The translations under genes were made by a program, and so were the position numbers. From Pseudomonadota bacterium (lineage in GTDB: Bacteria > Pseudomonadota > Alphaproteobacteria > Micavibrionales > CSBR16-224), in assembly GCA_013285465.1 (NCBI GenBank), contig CP053449.1, forward strand, positions 867,540-931,539: 64,000 nucleotides of DNA, written 5' to 3'. Position 1 is the stretch's first letter. Every line of letters starts with the position of its first letter. Below the pieces are notes generated by a model. It was not told the origin of the DNA and searched no databases. It was given only the letters and a program-made list of their open reading frames with translations. Positions 52,700 to 60,213 of the stretch are shown one piece after another.

Positions 52700-52729
52700 T
52701 TTACACATGCGTTTTTAATGTGCTATACT
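52700..52729 (+). promoter_or_regulatory. Promoter of the four-paralogue operon
   Basis: TTTACA (52700-52705), 18 bases, TATACT (52724-52729), about 95 bases before the first gene. Confidence 0.6.
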
Positions 52730-52828: not shown

Positions 52829-54160
52829 ATGGTAGGCGCAATGCGGTATGTAAACAAGACGGGGGATATTATAAGGCGGGCTTTTACGCTTGCCTTCTTG
52901 TGCTGTGTTTTAATATTCGGCGTTCCGAATAAAGCTTATGCACAGGTTCCTTGCACGGCCCCCGGCGCGGGTGCGGGTTTCTCAATTTCAACAGTTTGGA
53001 GCATGGTCTCCCAGATTGCCATTAATGCGGCGAAATCGGCGTTGAACTCGCTGCTTAGCAGCTTGATGACCAGTGTGACGGATGCAATGTCCGATATTTT
53101 CAGTATGTTCGGTGCGAATTTCGGCGAATATATGGACACGTTCTGGGCTTATGATTTAAGGCCCGGTCTGGCCAGTCAGACAGCACAGTTGCATACGATG
53201 ACGACCGACAGTTCGCGTGCTTACGGCTCTTTCCTTAGCGCCCAGCAATTGACCGAAACAAAACGCGCATTGGAGGCGGATGAACTTCGCGCCCACAGGG
53301 AAAACCGCCCGAGTGAACTGCAATGCGAGGCGGCAACGATGACCGGTGCGCTGCAAAGAATGAATTCCATTAAAAAAGGCTATGCCCGTGCGGCACCGAT
53401 TGAAAAGGTGCATGATATGGAGGCAAGCGCCGATGACGGTACGGGTAACCCGACACCGGCGGCGCAGGGGCTGGACGTTTATCAGGCTGCGGTTGTGGCG
53501 AATTATTGTACACGCTATCACAATAATGCGATCAATAACGGTAACGGCATTTGTGCCGGTGGTCCGGGAATCTTTCCGGATGAAGATATCAATGCGGCAA
53601 ATATGTTCACGGATACTTATGATGTGACGGATCCGCAGTTAAAACAGAATCTGGATGATTTTGTCCGTAATGTGGCGGGACTGCGACCGATTGAGCCGGT
53701 TAATCCGCAAACGCTGGATACGTCACAAGGGATTGGCAGCTTTATGGGAGCGCAGGAATATCTCGCGCAGCAGCAGCTTGCCTATGCGGGCATGTACCGC
53801 GTTGTTTCCTGTATTGTGCCGGGAAGTCAGATGGATCCCGCAGTATTGCAGGCTCACCGCGGACGTGCGGGGGTTGATCCTTTGGTGATGAGCGATAACC
53901 CGAGCTGGTGTGAAATTGAACGCGCCATTCTGGAGAGTACCGCAGAGGATTTGCAAAGCCGGCTAGCATCGGAAGAGCCTGAGAATGTTGACAGATATCT
54001 GGCGACGATGGGAATTTACCAATTGACCTTCGGCATGGCGGAAACATCGGATCTGATGGATTACAGCGCCGTGATACAGGGGGTGCAGGGTGCGCGTGAG
54101 CTGAAAAACAAAAACCGCGGCGTAGCGGACAGTATGAAAACGCTCGGCGGGTCCAACTAA
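52829..54160 (+). CDS. Exported protein, four-member tandem family, member 1
   Basis: A 443-residue protein of unknown function. A signal peptide ends near KAYA, followed by PCTAPGAG and a Ser/Ala/Leu-rich helical stretch (about 55-95) of amphipathic character. The family core is at about 105-175: FWAYDLRPGLASQTAQLHT, AYGSFLSAQQL, LEADELRAHRENRPSELQC. The C-terminal part includes GAQEYLAQQQLAYAGM and MSDNPSWCEIERAI. The frame also has an ATG at 52841 with an AGG before it, so the start is uncertain by four codons. The next gene begins 43 bases downstream. Confidence 0.75.
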   Translation: MVGAMRYVNKTGDIIRRAFTLAFLCCVLIFGVPNKAYAQVPCTAPGAGAGFSISTVWSMVSQIAINAAKSALNSLLSSLMTSVTDAMSDIFSMFGANFGEYMDTFWAYDLRPGLASQTAQLHTMTTDSSRAYGSFLSAQQLTETKRALEADELRAHRENRPSELQCEAATMTGALQRMNSIKKGYARAAPIEKVHDMEASADDGTGNPTPAAQGLDVYQAAVVANYCTRYHNNAINNGNGICAGGPGIFPDEDINAANMFTDTYDVTDPQLKQNLDDFVRNVAGLRPIEPVNPQTLDTSQGIGSFMGAQEYLAQQQLAYAGMYRVVSCIVPGSQMDPAVLQAHRGRAGVDPLVMSDNPSWCEIERAILESTAEDLQSRLASEEPENVDRYLATMGIYQLTFGMAETSDLMDYSAVIQGVQGARELKNKNRGVADSMKTLGGSN

Positions 54161-54203
54161 AGGAATTTAAGACGGGTTTATTGCAGGTTGTGAAGGAGAG
54201 GAG

Positions 54204-55619
54204 ATGGCAGACAAAAAAGAAGAGCGCAAGGAGAAAGCCGGTGACGGCCGCGTGAAACGTGCGGCGCTTTCCGGTATTGCTGCGATCATATTGTCGCTGT
54301 TTTTAATCGCAACGCCTTATGTGATGCGCTCCTATAATGTTTCCCAGAATTTATCCTATGCGCAAACACCGCCTGCGCCGTCGATCTGTCCTTACTGGAT
54401 GCCGTGCTGTGCCTGTGTATTTGCGGGTATGACGCAGGTGACGACGACCATTATCGAACAGGCCAAGGAATATATCACCAGTCTTGTCTTTGACCAGCTT
54501 GAAAATCTGATTAACGACCAGATCAATAATCTTACCGGCGGTATTTTGAATCGTGGGCAGGGTTTGGAAGAAAATATGGAGACATGGTGGGATCAGTTCT
54601 ATAACTATGATTTACGCCCCGCCCTTGCGAATATGATGGCGCAGATGCATACGTCGCGCATGGATCAGACGCGCCAAATCGGCTCTTTCTGGTCTGCTGA
54701 CGGTTTGAATACCAAGCTGAAAAGTCTGGAAACAAAAGAATTAAAGGCCAATCAGGATGCCCGCCCCAGTGAACATGTCTGTATGGCAATGACGCAGGCC
54801 GGGGGTATGGGGCGTGCACACGCATTTACGCGTGCCGTGCGCTGGGGTATCGAAGATGAAAGAAATAATGTCGGCCTGGGGACGGCCGGTTCTCTGGGGG
54901 CCGGCGGCTCTGCGACTGTAACGCAGGCGCGTTGGGACAGGCTGGCTAACAATTTCTGTAATGATGCCACCTATGCAGGAACCGTCTTCGGGGCGGATTG
55001 CCCGCCTTCGCCATCCGGTTACGATGCGGTTGATGCGGATATCAAACCCACGCAGACGGTGCTGGAAAGCCTGACCATTCCCGTGAAACAGTCGCCGAAT
55101 GCATTGGCGGCAACGGAACAGGTTGTTGAAAATATCGCCGGTATTGATGTGGTGCAAGGTATGACGGCGCAAGAAATGGATAGTCTGCGCGGTCAGCGGC
55201 GCTATCTGGCAAGCCGTGCGCGTATCGCGAAACGTGCTGCAGCAAGTAGCCCGGCGCTGTTGTCGGTAGGCTGGCGTGCCGAGGGAAGTGATATGTCGTT
55301 ATGGATGCAGGAATTTAATGACCGTACCGGCTCTTCCCTGCCTGTGTCCGATAATCCCAGCTACAGCGAAATCATGCACGCTTTGACGCGCTATAAACCG
55401 TCTTCGGGAACTTATGGTGCCGAGATGACGGTAGATACGCTAAACCTTGAGCGCGAACGGTATATCGTCTCCTCGATTTACCTTATGCAGCTCAGAGATT
55501 ATTTTGAACTTTTGGAACGTGTGGCGCTGACACTGGCCGTTGACACATCTTTGATGCTGGATTCGCATGCGGCATCACAGCCTAGCGGCGCCAGCAGTGC
55601 GCCATCGGCACGACCCTAA
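54204..55619 (+). CDS. Exported protein, four-member tandem family, member 2
   Basis: A 471-residue paralogue. A basic N terminus and long hydrophobic segment (about 22-40) end near LSYA, then CPYWMPCCACVF with four cysteines, and a helical region TTIIEQAKEYITSLVF. The core reads QFYNYDLRPALANMMAQMHT, QTRQIGSFWSAD, LETKELKANQDARPSEHVC (about 130-195). C-terminally RGQRRYLASRARIAKRA and VSDNPSYSEIMHAL match member 1. The tail is Ser/Ala/Pro-rich. GGAGAGGAG precedes the ATG. Function unknown. Confidence 0.77.
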   Translation: MADKKEERKEKAGDGRVKRAALSGIAAIILSLFLIATPYVMRSYNVSQNLSYAQTPPAPSICPYWMPCCACVFAGMTQVTTTIIEQAKEYITSLVFDQLENLINDQINNLTGGILNRGQGLEENMETWWDQFYNYDLRPALANMMAQMHTSRMDQTRQIGSFWSADGLNTKLKSLETKELKANQDARPSEHVCMAMTQAGGMGRAHAFTRAVRWGIEDERNNVGLGTAGSLGAGGSATVTQARWDRLANNFCNDATYAGTVFGADCPPSPSGYDAVDADIKPTQTVLESLTIPVKQSPNALAATEQVVENIAGIDVVQGMTAQEMDSLRGQRRYLASRARIAKRAAASSPALLSVGWRAEGSDMSLWMQEFNDRTGSSLPVSDNPSYSEIMHALTRYKPSSGTYGAEMTVDTLNLERERYIVSSIYLMQLRDYFELLERVALTLAVDTSLMLDSHAASQPSGASSAPSARP

Positions 55620-55650
55620 GCGCAAGAGGCATTCAAGCGAGGTTAAAGAA

Positions 55651-57015
55651 ATGGAACAAAAGCAAAAAGCAGTCTCATCAAAAAGAAAAGGCCTTCCCGC
55701 CTTTTTATTTGCTGTCTTTTGCGGTTTTTGTGTCATGACGGCAACCGTGACGGTCGCGCCGCGCAAGGCGCAGGCACAGACCTGTGAAACAATGTTCGAG
55801 CTGCTTGCGCATCAGGGGCTTATGGTCGCCTTGCAGGAGGCTGCGATGCAGGCATTGAACACGCTGATCAGCAGCACTCTTAACAGTTTCATCAGTTCAA
55901 TCTTGGGGACTTTCGGTATTAGCGGCGGCGGCACGGATGGCGGTATGAATTGTTATACCTCCGGTACGGATTGCGGTGAACTTGATGATCTTGACGAGCA
56001 GAACCGCCAAGCCTGGGCTGATCTATGGGCGGAATGGCTGCCGGGCATGCAAGACATGACGAAACAGCTGAATACGGCGGATCTGGATAAAAGCCGTATG
56101 TGGGGTGAATTCTTGAACGCCGCATTGCAGACGCGGACACAAAGGGAATTGCAGGACAGAGAAATCGACGCAATGAGACGCTATAGACCGTCAGAAGAAA
56201 TCTGTGTTGCCGATACGATCAACCCCTTGCAGTTAAATGCGCAGATCTCTGCAGGTGCAACGAAAGTGGCAATGGAAAGTGAATTATATGAAAGCGGATT
56301 GGGGCTCGGCGGAATGGCGATGGGCGGAACAATCGCGGCGCAAGGCCCTGATGCCGTGCTGAATGCGGAATTTCAGGAATATATGAACAATTACTATGAT
56401 CCGAACTTCAATGGCGGTTTAATGCCGGCGGGGGCGCCGTCAGTGCGGGCGCGTGACCAGTATAATGTCGCCAAATCGATTTTCGGGGCGGATACGATTG
56501 ATTTGAACGATCAAAACAGACGTCAGGATGTTCAGGTTGCCCAGCGGCTGCTGGTCGGTTCGCAGGTTCTGCCCAGTATTGATCAGGAAGCTTTCAATAC
56601 ATCGCAAGGGCGGGAGATGGTTCTGAAGCGGCGTAAGTATCAAGCACGTTTAAATACTTTTGCCGGCGCTGTCAGTGATGTGGTGGGGGAGCGCAGCTCG
56701 GCCGCCGAAGCGCTTGAAGTCGAGGCGATGCAGGTCGCAAATGGCCGTCCGGCCGAGGAAAGAGCGCCGGATGCGCGCGTCAGCTATCAGGAAATTAAAA
56801 GTACCCGCCTGCAGCATATGTGGTCGCCGCGTTATATTACGGAACTGGATGATTCTCCGCACACAGCCATTCAAAAACAGATTGATATTTACACGCAACA
56901 AACGGTCGAATTGCAGGATATGATGCGCAAAATGGAGCGTATGGGCTTAACGACATCAGCACGTTTAGGGCAAAACCTCGACGCGACTGTGCGGCCGAAT
57001 ACCAGCCGCCGGTAA
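55651..57015 (+). CDS. Exported protein, four-member tandem family, member 3
   Basis: About 454 residues. The signal peptide (MEQKQKAVSSKRKGLPAFLF...) ends at RKAQAQ and is followed by CETMFELLAHQGLMVALQEA, a helical Ser/Leu/Ile-rich stretch, and a Gly/Cys-rich loop. The core is WLPGMQDMTKQLNT, KSRMWGEFLNAAL, LQDREIDAMRRYRPSEEIC. The C-terminal half has LKRRKYQARLNTFAG and VSYQEIKSTRLQHM. The frame is open back to 55567, inside member 2, but the ATG at 55651 with GAGG upstream gives the signal peptide. Spacing to member 2 is 31 bases. Confidence 0.77.
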   Translation: MEQKQKAVSSKRKGLPAFLFAVFCGFCVMTATVTVAPRKAQAQTCETMFELLAHQGLMVALQEAAMQALNTLISSTLNSFISSILGTFGISGGGTDGGMNCYTSGTDCGELDDLDEQNRQAWADLWAEWLPGMQDMTKQLNTADLDKSRMWGEFLNAALQTRTQRELQDREIDAMRRYRPSEEICVADTINPLQLNAQISAGATKVAMESELYESGLGLGGMAMGGTIAAQGPDAVLNAEFQEYMNNYYDPNFNGGLMPAGAPSVRARDQYNVAKSIFGADTIDLNDQNRRQDVQVAQRLLVGSQVLPSIDQEAFNTSQGREMVLKRRKYQARLNTFAGAVSDVVGERSSAAEALEVEAMQVANGRPAEERAPDARVSYQEIKSTRLQHMWSPRYITELDDSPHTAIQKQIDIYTQQTVELQDMMRKMERMGLTTSARLGQNLDATVRPNTSRR

Positions 57016-57036
57016 ATGAGGGAGAGAAGGTAGAGA

Positions 57037-58299
57037 ATGAAAACATTATTAAACTGTAAAAGCTTATTTTTCGGCGCAATGTTTTTGGCGGTCTTTTCTC
57101 TGGCGATTGTCAGCTTCAGCAGACCTGCCGAAGCCTGTTGTGATAACTCGGGATCGGCCTGGGCTCCTATTGTGCAGCTGATTAACAAAGTGCGGGAATT
57201 CGTTCAGACTTTTCTGGATCAGATGAGCAGCTTTATGAATCTTAACTGGCTAAATGCCCAGTTTGAAGTTGTGACACGTTTTATGGAGTTTGACCAAAAT
57301 ACGCGGGAGGAATTCGCGGAATTCTGGTCGCGTTATTTACCGGCCTTGCAGGAACAGACAAAACAGCTGAATACTGCGGAAGTTGAACAAACCCGCAGTA
57401 TCGGTTCATTTATTGACGCGACAAACCAGTCCGACACAGTTGCTTTGTATCAGGAGCTGGAGCTTGAAGCACACAGGCGTTTCCGCCCCAGCGATAACAG
57501 CTGTCAGGCGGAGGGTGTTAAGGCAACATTGCCTGAAACCGAGCATCTGGTGCGCGCAACGGCGGATGCGACCAATAAGCAGGGTATTGAGCGTCATGGT
57601 GCGAATGTCGGCTCAATTTCCGCAGAGGGGCCGGATACTGAGTTAAGTGCGTTGATGACGGAAATGCAGACGGAATTCTGCGCCGCCGGGCAGGCAGGTT
57701 GTGCCGCACCGGGAGCATTGCCTTTGGCGAATATTATGATTACCGAAAGATCACGCGGCGTGACGATGACGCATAATCTTGATTCTCCGGCTGAGCGCGC
57801 CGCCCAGATGCGTGCGGTGGATAACTTTGTCGCACCCTACACGCCGCCGCTGACGCCGGCCGCTGTGCAGAACACGGCGCAGACACAACGGGAATTTGCT
57901 TATAAACGCCGTCCGCTGATGGCGCGGAAATCGCTGTTGCGGTATCTGGCTGCTGAAGAGGCGGCGGCAGGCGTTGCCGGTCCGACGAATCTGGAGGCAG
58001 CGGCAACACGTACGGGCGCAGGCATTCCTGCTGCGCATGTGTCCACCAATCCCAGTATGAAAGAACTGGCGGAAACGCAGCGCGAAAGACTGTTATCGCA
58101 GGTCTTCTTTGATACGACGGTGACGGATCCCGAAACATTGTTGCGCCAGATGGTAGATATGAAAGAACAGCAATTACGTACATGGGTGCGTATTAAAAAG
58201 ATTAATGAGCGCCGCTTGGCTCTGTTGTCTGCGGAACTTGGCCATGAGGTTGAACAAGACGCGCCGTCAGATGATCCGACTTTGCGGTCAGGGCGTTAA
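57037..58299 (+). CDS. Exported protein, four-member tandem family, member 4
   Basis: A 420-residue paralogue and last gene of the operon. The signal peptide ends near PAEA, followed by CCDNSGSAW and a helical segment (VREFVQTFLDQMSSF). The core reads FWSRYLPALQEQTKQLNT, QTRSIGSFIDATNQ, LELEAHRRFRPSDNSC. C-terminally YKRRPLMARKSLLRYLA and STNPSMKELAETQRERL match members 1-3. The end is acidic. GGGAGAGAAGG precedes the ATG. A strong terminator lies 40 bases downstream, separating it from fliF. It is closest to member 3 by eye. Confidence 0.77.
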   Translation: MKTLLNCKSLFFGAMFLAVFSLAIVSFSRPAEACCDNSGSAWAPIVQLINKVREFVQTFLDQMSSFMNLNWLNAQFEVVTRFMEFDQNTREEFAEFWSRYLPALQEQTKQLNTAEVEQTRSIGSFIDATNQSDTVALYQELELEAHRRFRPSDNSCQAEGVKATLPETEHLVRATADATNKQGIERHGANVGSISAEGPDTELSALMTEMQTEFCAAGQAGCAAPGALPLANIMITERSRGVTMTHNLDSPAERAAQMRAVDNFVAPYTPPLTPAAVQNTAQTQREFAYKRRPLMARKSLLRYLAAEEAAAGVAGPTNLEAAATRTGAGIPAAHVSTNPSMKELAETQRERLLSQVFFDTTVTDPETLLRQMVDMKEQQLRTWVRIKKINERRLALLSAELGHEVEQDAPSDDPTLRSGR

Positions 58300-58338
58300 T
58301 TCACCGCCGATTTTGACATGATTGTGTATAAAAAAACG

Positions 58339-58368
58339 CCCTTTGTGTTACGCAAAGGGTTTTTTTTG
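58339..58368 (+). terminator. Rho-independent terminator of the four-paralogue operon
   Basis: CCCTTTGTG-tta-CGCAAAGGG forms a nine-pair stem (one G-T) with a three-base loop, followed by a run of T to 58368. It separates the operon from fliF. Confidence 0.85.
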
Positions 58369-58536: not shown

Positions 58537-60213
58537 TTGGACGCATTTTTGGAGACGTTGAAGAATCTCGGCCCGGCTCGGCTTGGGGTTATGTTGTTAA
58601 CCCTGTTGGGTCTTGTCGTATTTTTTATCTATATTGCCGTACGTTCGGGAACGCCCAGCATGACATTGCTGTATGGCGATCTGTCCACGGCAGATGCGAC
58701 GGCTGTCGTTGCGAAGCTGGAGCTTTCAGACATTCCTTACAGAACGGGCGATAACGGCATGGAGGTCATGGTGCCGCAGCAGCATGTCGGCATGGCGCGC
58801 ATGTTGCTGGCCGCAGAAGGCCTGCCCAGCACCGGCACCATCGGCTACGAGGTTTTTGACCAGAAACAGCGTTTCGGCACGACAAGTTTCGTACAGAATA
58901 TCAATCAACTGCGCGCACTCGAAGGTGAGCTGGCCCGTACGATTCGTACGCTTGATCCGGTTCAGACCGCACGCGTACATCTGGTTCTGCCGCAGCGCGA
59001 ATTATTCACCCGCGAAAGCCGCGAGGCATCTGCCAGCGTGACACTCAGCTTGCGCGGCGGTCGGCAGATCGGCCCGGAACAAGTGCAGGCCGTACAGCAT
59101 CTGGTGGCATCAGCCGTTCCTGATTTGAAGGCCGATAATGTCGCGATTACCGACACACAGGCGAATTTGCTGGCAGGCGGCTCACGCGATACCGGCCTGA
59201 TCGGCGGACGCGGCGGATCGCCCGAAGATAAAAAAGCGAAATATGAACAGCACATGACCAGTGTTGTCGAAGACCTTGTCAGCCGCGTCGTCGGCTATGG
59301 CAATGTGCGCGCCAATGTGGTTGCCGAGATTGACTTTGATGTTGTCAGCCGGAACTCCGAAAGCTTTGACCCCGAGGGACAGGTGCTGCGCTCTTCACAA
59401 ACCATCAGTGATGAAGAAACAGACACGACCGGCAGTAACAGTCAGGCTGTGACAGTTGAAAACAATTTACCCGGTCTGCCCGGTGCGGGTGGGAATGGCG
59501 GCGGATTAAGCCGCACACGTACGGAAGATATCGCGAATTACGAAATCAGCCGCACCGTGGAAAGCGTGATGCGGGAAGGCGGTGAAATCCGTAAATTATC
59601 CGTGGCGGTCTTGGTTGACGGCAATTACGAAACGCTGCCGCCGGCAGAAGACGCGGAAGATGCTGAAAGCGCCCCCGAGCGCCGCTATTCGCCGCGCTCA
59701 CAGGAAGAGCTGGATAAAATCGCATCACTGGTACAATCCGCCGTCGGCTATGACAGCGCGCGCGGCGATGTCGTGCAGGTGGTCAATATGCAATTCGCCC
59801 ATACGGAGGATTTGTCTCCTCTGGCAGAAGAAGAACTCGTTTTCGGCCTTCTTGAACGGCAGGACTTGCTGCGGCTTGCGGAAATCCTTATGCTGGGACT
59901 CGTATCGCTTCTTGTTGTCTTTGTTGTGTTGCGCCCGCTGGTCACCCATTTCGCGGCAGCAGCGCAAAGCGCAGCGGCTGAGCGCCGTACCGCAATGGAA
60001 GCCCCCCGTGGCGGCGCTGCGGCGATGGGGCAGATGGATGCCGGCGGCATGCAGGCCGCAGGGATGATGGAAGACGGTGAAGACAATATTGATATGGTTA
60101 ATGTAGAAGGACGGATTAACGCATCATCAATGAGAAAGATTAGCGATATCGTGGAAACCCACCCGTCTGAGGCCGTATCGGTTCTCCGGAGCTGGATGTC
60201 GCAGGAAAGTTAA
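58537..60213 (+). CDS. fliF: Flagellar MS-ring protein FliF
   Basis: A 558-residue protein forming the membrane ring at the base of the flagellum. Two membrane helices (about 15-38 and 447-468) flank the large periplasmic ring-building domains, which carry the YscJ/FliF pattern (PSMTLLYGDLSTADATAVV, VPQQHVGMARMLLAAEGLP, ARVHLVLPQRELF). The C-terminal cytoplasmic end (ISDIVETHPSEAVSVLRSWM) binds FliG. Translation probably begins at TTG, 58537, as no ATG precedes the first helix. It is the first gene of a fliF-fliG-fliH run. Confidence 0.95.
   Translation: MDAFLETLKNLGPARLGVMLLTLLGLVVFFIYIAVRSGTPSMTLLYGDLSTADATAVVAKLELSDIPYRTGDNGMEVMVPQQHVGMARMLLAAEGLPSTGTIGYEVFDQKQRFGTTSFVQNINQLRALEGELARTIRTLDPVQTARVHLVLPQRELFTRESREASASVTLSLRGGRQIGPEQVQAVQHLVASAVPDLKADNVAITDTQANLLAGGSRDTGLIGGRGGSPEDKKAKYEQHMTSVVEDLVSRVVGYGNVRANVVAEIDFDVVSRNSESFDPEGQVLRSSQTISDEETDTTGSNSQAVTVENNLPGLPGAGGNGGGLSRTRTEDIANYEISRTVESVMREGGEIRKLSVAVLVDGNYETLPPAEDAEDAESAPERRYSPRSQEELDKIASLVQSAVGYDSARGDVVQVVNMQFAHTEDLSPLAEEELVFGLLERQDLLRLAEILMLGLVSLLVVFVVLRPLVTHFAAAAQSAAAERRTAMEAPRGGAAAMGQMDAGGMQAAGMMEDGEDNIDMVNVEGRINASSMRKISDIVETHPSEAVSVLRSWMSQES

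Follow-up and report, generated by a model that had tools for sequence, protein, structure and literature searches.

A window of 64,000 nucleotides, the whole stretch analysed here, comes from contig CP053449.1 (assembly GCA_013285465.1) of a bacterium of the order Micavibrionales, whose genome is a single contig of 2.67 Mb. The window holds an array of four tandem paralogous genes, labelled A to D after the groups of the tree described below. The array very probably encodes four IcmX/TraW (VirB5-class) subunits of a chromosomal type IV secretion system (T4SS) of the Dot/Icm type (type IVB), and a fifth paralogue, which is longer, lies in another part of the genome. The genes have the same direction, and their open reading frame (ORF) coordinates agree with a preliminary description of this DNA, which had reported four tandem paralogues with gaps of 43, 31 and 21 bases. 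For group C, the mechanical ORF start at 55567 (482 amino acids, aa) was set aside because it would run into the preceding gene. One promoter-like site and one strong terminator-like hairpin flank the array; they are consensus matches only, in line with the single promoter and single terminator proposed before. The close spacing and these two signals imply co-expression of the four genes. Against the nearest relative, the ratio of nonsynonymous to synonymous substitution rates (dN/dS) is 0.08-0.10 for the four array genes and 0.07-0.10 across groups A-E and both DotA genes. Purifying selection on the array is thus strong, and all of these genes appear to encode functional proteins.

Table 1. 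Features of the window, in window coordinates
Feature	Coordinates	Strand	Basis
IcmX-like paralogue, group A, 443 aa	52829..54160	+	family profile vs TraW 98.2%; AlphaFold model, best PDB match IcmX in 9NGY
IcmX-like paralogue, group B, 471 aa	54204..55619	+	assigned to the family by alignment and profile
IcmX-like paralogue, group C, 454 aa from ATG 55651	55651..57015	+	same family
IcmX-like paralogue, group D, 420 aa	57037..58299	+	AlphaFold model, best PDB match IcmX in 9NGY
Promoter-like site upstream of the array, TTTACA-18-TATACT, TG before second hexamer	52700..52729	+	10/12 consensus match only
Intrinsic-terminator-like hairpin at the array's end, 10-pair stem then T-run	58338..58360	+	consensus match only
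fliF, downstream neighbour, outside the system	58537..60213	+	recognised from sequence; array-fliF-fliG synteny
Second DotI/IcmL-like protein, 222 aa	9097..9765	+	PF11393, E 1e-15, above Pfam cut-off

The array proteins are only 26-28% identical to each other in pairwise comparison. By eye, each begins with hydrophobic residues and then shows an AxA-like motif (AYA, SYA, AQA and AEA), which fits the export signals claimed earlier, and the proteins are apparently exported to the periplasm. The shared core claimed for them is present in a proper alignment of the four as F/W...L-(R)P-(A/G)-(L/M)..Q..QL/M.T...R..GSF...E..A....RPS(E/D)..C, and 60 relatives all keep C71, C193 and S386, as numbered in the second protein. 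A C-terminal SDNPS/STNPS pattern, also claimed for all four, stands in proteins 1, 2 and 4, but protein 3 retains the S alone. A model built from the four proteins recovers the fifth member, of 815 aa, in the same genome (expect value, E, 1e-47; family domain at 2157036-2158043, near flgI/flgJ) and detects the family in 27 of the 38 related genomes, so that the core is more than a chance resemblance. With a broader family model, 129 of 142 genomes in the order have members. None of the four proteins reached the cut-off of any Pfam or NCBIfam model; one had a YjfB_motility match below cut-off (E 0.02). Sequence searches of the PDB, with TraW or the family profile as query, returned chance matches only.

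Relationship to IcmX and TraW

Three independent lines of evidence support the assignment to IcmX/TraW: profile-profile comparison, fold and gene neighbourhood. In HHalign, a profile of 75 family members aligned with ten plasmid TraW sequences at a probability of 98.2% (E 5e-14, 276 columns). The aligned part makes up the C-terminal two thirds; the stretches around the core cysteine and FCDP...C fall within it. The members of two of the seven families sampled in the order, f1 and f3, gave 96.9% when compared alone. All controls (DotH, DotI, DotC, DotG, the TcpQ-domain protein, reversed alignments and five shuffles) stayed below 4%.

AlphaFold models were obtained for proteins A and D, with a mean predicted local distance difference test (pLDDT) score of 81 and 82.8, respectively. 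For both models, chain AP1 of 9NGY, the Legionella DotA-IcmX protochannel, was the sole outlier among 350,542 PDB chains. Foldseek gave a probability of 1.00 and Z 12.8 for A (next best 7.2) and a probability of 0.99 and Z 14.1 for D (next best 6.7). Chain AP1 (residues 23-458) is identified as IcmX since DotA in that structure is chain FP1, of 1048 aa. The match covers the C-terminal two thirds or more of A and D, over about 265 residues.

Gene neighbourhood adds the third line. The typical order in relatives is lytic transglycosylase-DotD-DotC-DotB-TcpQ-domain protein-array-FlgL/FlgK-DotI-DotH-DotG, found whole or split across contigs. These genes were identified with Pfam models for DotC (PF16932), DotB (T2SSE, PF00437), DotI (PF11393), DotH (PF12293) and DotD (PF16816), and DotG was called from a sub-cut-off TrbI match and its position. 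The array lies inside this dot/icm cluster, intact or split, in f1 (genomes G004 and G005), f3 and f4, and adjoins DotI in f2, f5, f6 and f7; at least one genome in each of the seven families has it within or right beside dot/icm genes. Co-occurrence with T4SS genes, proposed earlier as a check, is thus found throughout the sampled families.

Several observations weigh against the assignment. The HHalign E-values are those of single comparisons, and f4 alone and f7 alone gave about 1% against TraW, which is no match. The Foldseek E-values for 9NGY are modest (2e-3 and 4e-2). A HMMER search with the family hidden Markov model found nothing at E<10 in plasmid regions of R64, pD2RT and a Bosea plasmid, two of which carry TraW, and the homology therefore rests on profile-profile comparison and fold. 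In the window's own genome, the array stands beside fliF/fliG and not beside dot genes, with the fifth copy near flgI/flgJ. A search of this genome for a DotL-type coupling protein with PF10412, possibly the wrong model, came back empty.

The flagellar neighbours raise the question whether the array encodes flagellar or Tad-pilus accessory proteins. Besides the locations just given, a Tad-like cluster downstream and the presence of flgK/flgL among the dot genes of relatives speak for such a role. It is nevertheless highly improbable, as fold and profile both point to IcmX/TraW alone, and dot adjacency occurs in all seven families whereas fliF adjacency is confined to two sister genera. In these, the window's genus and its sister, the array has been relocated between a citrate synthase gene and fliF, with array-fliF-fliG synteny in G000-G003 and G006. 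No bacterial flagellar structure stands out in the PDB fold searches with the A and D models. The flagellar role was rejected because flagellar neighbours vary by lineage and neither fold nor profile favours it; the linkage to flagellar genes, likewise set earlier as a check, recurs and is regarded as secondary. Most families have flgK and flgL within their dot/icm cluster (L051 4787-8411, L159 10669-14024, L061, and L053 1-2696).

The four proteins had been presented as being of unknown family. This was mistaken in substance, although Pfam and NCBIfam models stay below cut-off, and the tentative guess of a VirB5- or IcmX-like translocon role made at the same time agrees with all three lines of evidence.

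Compared with Legionella, the proteins share the IcmX fold, the apparent export to the periplasm and the accompanying DotA, DotB, DotC, DotD, DotG, DotH and DotI. They differ from Legionella IcmX in sequence (about 10% identity) and in number, with four to five diverged genes and tandem arrays in place of one gene, and some members in this order reach 700-1200 aa. TraW of IncI/R64-type plasmids is homologous by profile-profile comparison over the C-terminal two thirds, but about one TraW is present there, whereas the system described here is chromosomal with scattered dot genes. VirB5/TrwJ of R388 (type IVA) belongs to the same functional class, a pentameric stalk on VirB6 (PMC12857230, PMC12624023), but to a different T4SS class, and the fold matches to 7o3v and 8rtd/8rt9 are at noise level.

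The dispersed dot genes of the own genome include DotH at 1565651, with DotI and DotG beside it, and DotC at 669528, with DotB, DotD and the transglycosylase beside it. Two tandem DotA genes occupy 1429415-1435437. A protein at 2042368 is 70% identical to a 1022-aa DotO-like protein of a relative, which is read here as DotO from its size and position; Pfam gave no match on the 1022-aa protein. The DotI-like gene of the window (Table 1) sits between aconitase-like and HflK-like genes and is probably the counterpart of a second DotI that adjoins the first in f3 genomes.

Multiplication of IcmX and DotA in the order

In this order, IcmX started from one ancestral gene that was duplicated and diversified; several lineages show the same for DotA. 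The tree of f1 and f3 sequences contains five groups, of which A, B, C and D are tandem and E is usually longer and at a separate locus. Most f1/f3 genomes with a countable assembly have one of each of A-E; G020 gives E alone, and G005 and G037 are incomplete. Across the order, IcmX-like copies range from one to six per genome, with five in the window's own genome. The f4 genomes have two to six matches each, which form a clade of their own except for deeper-branching copies in G027, and the pairs in f2, f5 and f6 each cluster together. These patterns suggest that duplication occurred repeatedly, with weak support at the deep nodes. Genomes of f7 with a detectable member have one copy.

The family model search found no member in G013 and G025 (both f7), in G012 and in four f4 genomes. 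G089, G124 and G127 are near-complete and have three DotA, without a detected IcmX-like gene; as the main DotI is also absent there, these three either lack the entire cluster or have it unassembled. DotA is single in f7, f2, f6 and most f3 genomes, and the window's genus has two. In f4, the largest family, a hand count gave exactly three DotA matches in 80 of 104 genomes, and many of the exceptions look like split genes. In plasmids both genes occur about once each (TraW in 3433 places in 3420 records, DotA/TraY in 3710 places in 3695 records). The idea that the copy numbers of IcmX and DotA vary strictly together was considered and found unsupported, most f3 genomes having five of the former and one of the latter. 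In G020, which is 99% complete, four tandem DotA genes encode 976-1396 aa (L106), and neither DotC nor any of paralogues A-D turned up.

The components themselves are known; their multiplication into fixed paralogue sets is undescribed in the open-access literature searched. That literature yielded no account of IcmX in several copies and none of type IVB secretion in Micavibrio.

A proposed mixed stalk in predators of bacteria and their relatives

IcmX corresponds to TraW and the VirB5 class, and DotA to TraY and the VirB6 class, both forming pentamers that make up a stalk or protochannel (PMC12624023, PMC12981334, PMC12857230). In the T4SS structures found, the VirB5/VirB6-class stalk is described as a pentamer with one gene product each. 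The IcmX-like proteins of the order would be exported to the periplasm and sit atop DotA in the inner membrane, as IcmX does in Legionella. By homology, this central stalk would plug the translocation path at rest and extend it when the machine fires (PMC12981334). Most likely, different IcmX chains would be combined in one stalk. It is proposed, tentatively, that the IcmX-DotA protochannel is hetero-oligomeric, with five non-interchangeable chains A-E filling the pentameric stalk in two families and mixed DotA in other lineages, so as to form an asymmetric, specialised type IVB channel through which epibiotic bacterial predators and their relatives would inject other bacteria.

For f1 and f3, the mixed stalk is the simplest reading: the assembly is five-fold, and five chains that differ from one another have been conserved and retained together, four of them from genes that appear to be co-transcribed. 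A hetero-oligomer had been suggested in the preliminary description; the idea gains strength from the five groups kept in two families, the known IcmX pentamer, the shared promoter-like site and the multiplied DotA, but is still something that we infer. That copy numbers need not match is seen from f4 genomes with two to six IcmX-like genes and from f3 genomes with a single DotA. As a general rule, five genes for a pentamer was also rejected: it fits f1 and f3, while f4 has two to six and f7 one.

The paralogues might instead be alternative subunits, each forming a homopentameric stalk for different conditions or prey. The range of one to six copies in the order and the combination of five paralogues with a single DotA in most f3 genomes would suit this reading, which is nonetheless rather unlikely. 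Four close genes with one promoter-like site and one terminator-like hairpin imply co-expression, and the same five groups are kept in two families; in the window's genus their dN/dS values are low to a similar degree.

A second alternative, slightly less probable again, is that at least one copy has left the stalk and now acts as a surface tip adhesin or as a secreted factor at the contact site, like VirB5 on pilus tips. One long copy per set occurs in many genomes, long members have large N-terminal extensions, one of them with thrombospondin type 3 repeats, and a shortened IcmX occurs in Legionella supernatants (PMC12981334). The four window proteins, however, have the usual length of an IcmX, and the extent of the fold match in A and D argues against a changed role. 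The long members with large N-terminal extensions were seen at L054 9268-12891 (1207 aa), L065 7794-10985 (1063 aa) and L035 17012-19459 (815 aa). It is the 1207-aa member that matches thrombospondin type 3 repeats, and by eye one of its inserts resembles lysozyme.

The mixed channel proposed here would deliver into prey or neighbouring bacteria. Injection into prey is plausible since a bacteria-killing type IVB system is already known in Pseudomonas putida (PMC9519443). The 2011 genome paper of Micavibrio aeruginosavorus ARL-13 reported that it saw no sign of secretion systems of type III or IV (PMC3189940). The present findings, contrary to that report, suggest that this lineage of epibiotic predators has a type IVB machine. 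One cluster of genome G071 (L159, L160) unites DotG-DotH-DotI, two family members, FlgK-FlgL and TcpQ-DotB-DotC-DotD-lytic transglycosylase, and three tandem DotA genes lie away from it. G071 appears to be M. aeruginosavorus EPB. The order, apparently including this cultured predator, has multiplied and fixed distinct stalk genes, which in f1 and f3 fall into five conserved groups. With the multiplied stalk genes, it becomes directly testable whether the channel is asymmetric in its subunits.

Just downstream of the window (L037 7842-14000), a Flp pilin-like gene of 68 aa is found together with Tad-like genes, which resemble TadA, TadB, TadC and TadZ on a look at their sequences.

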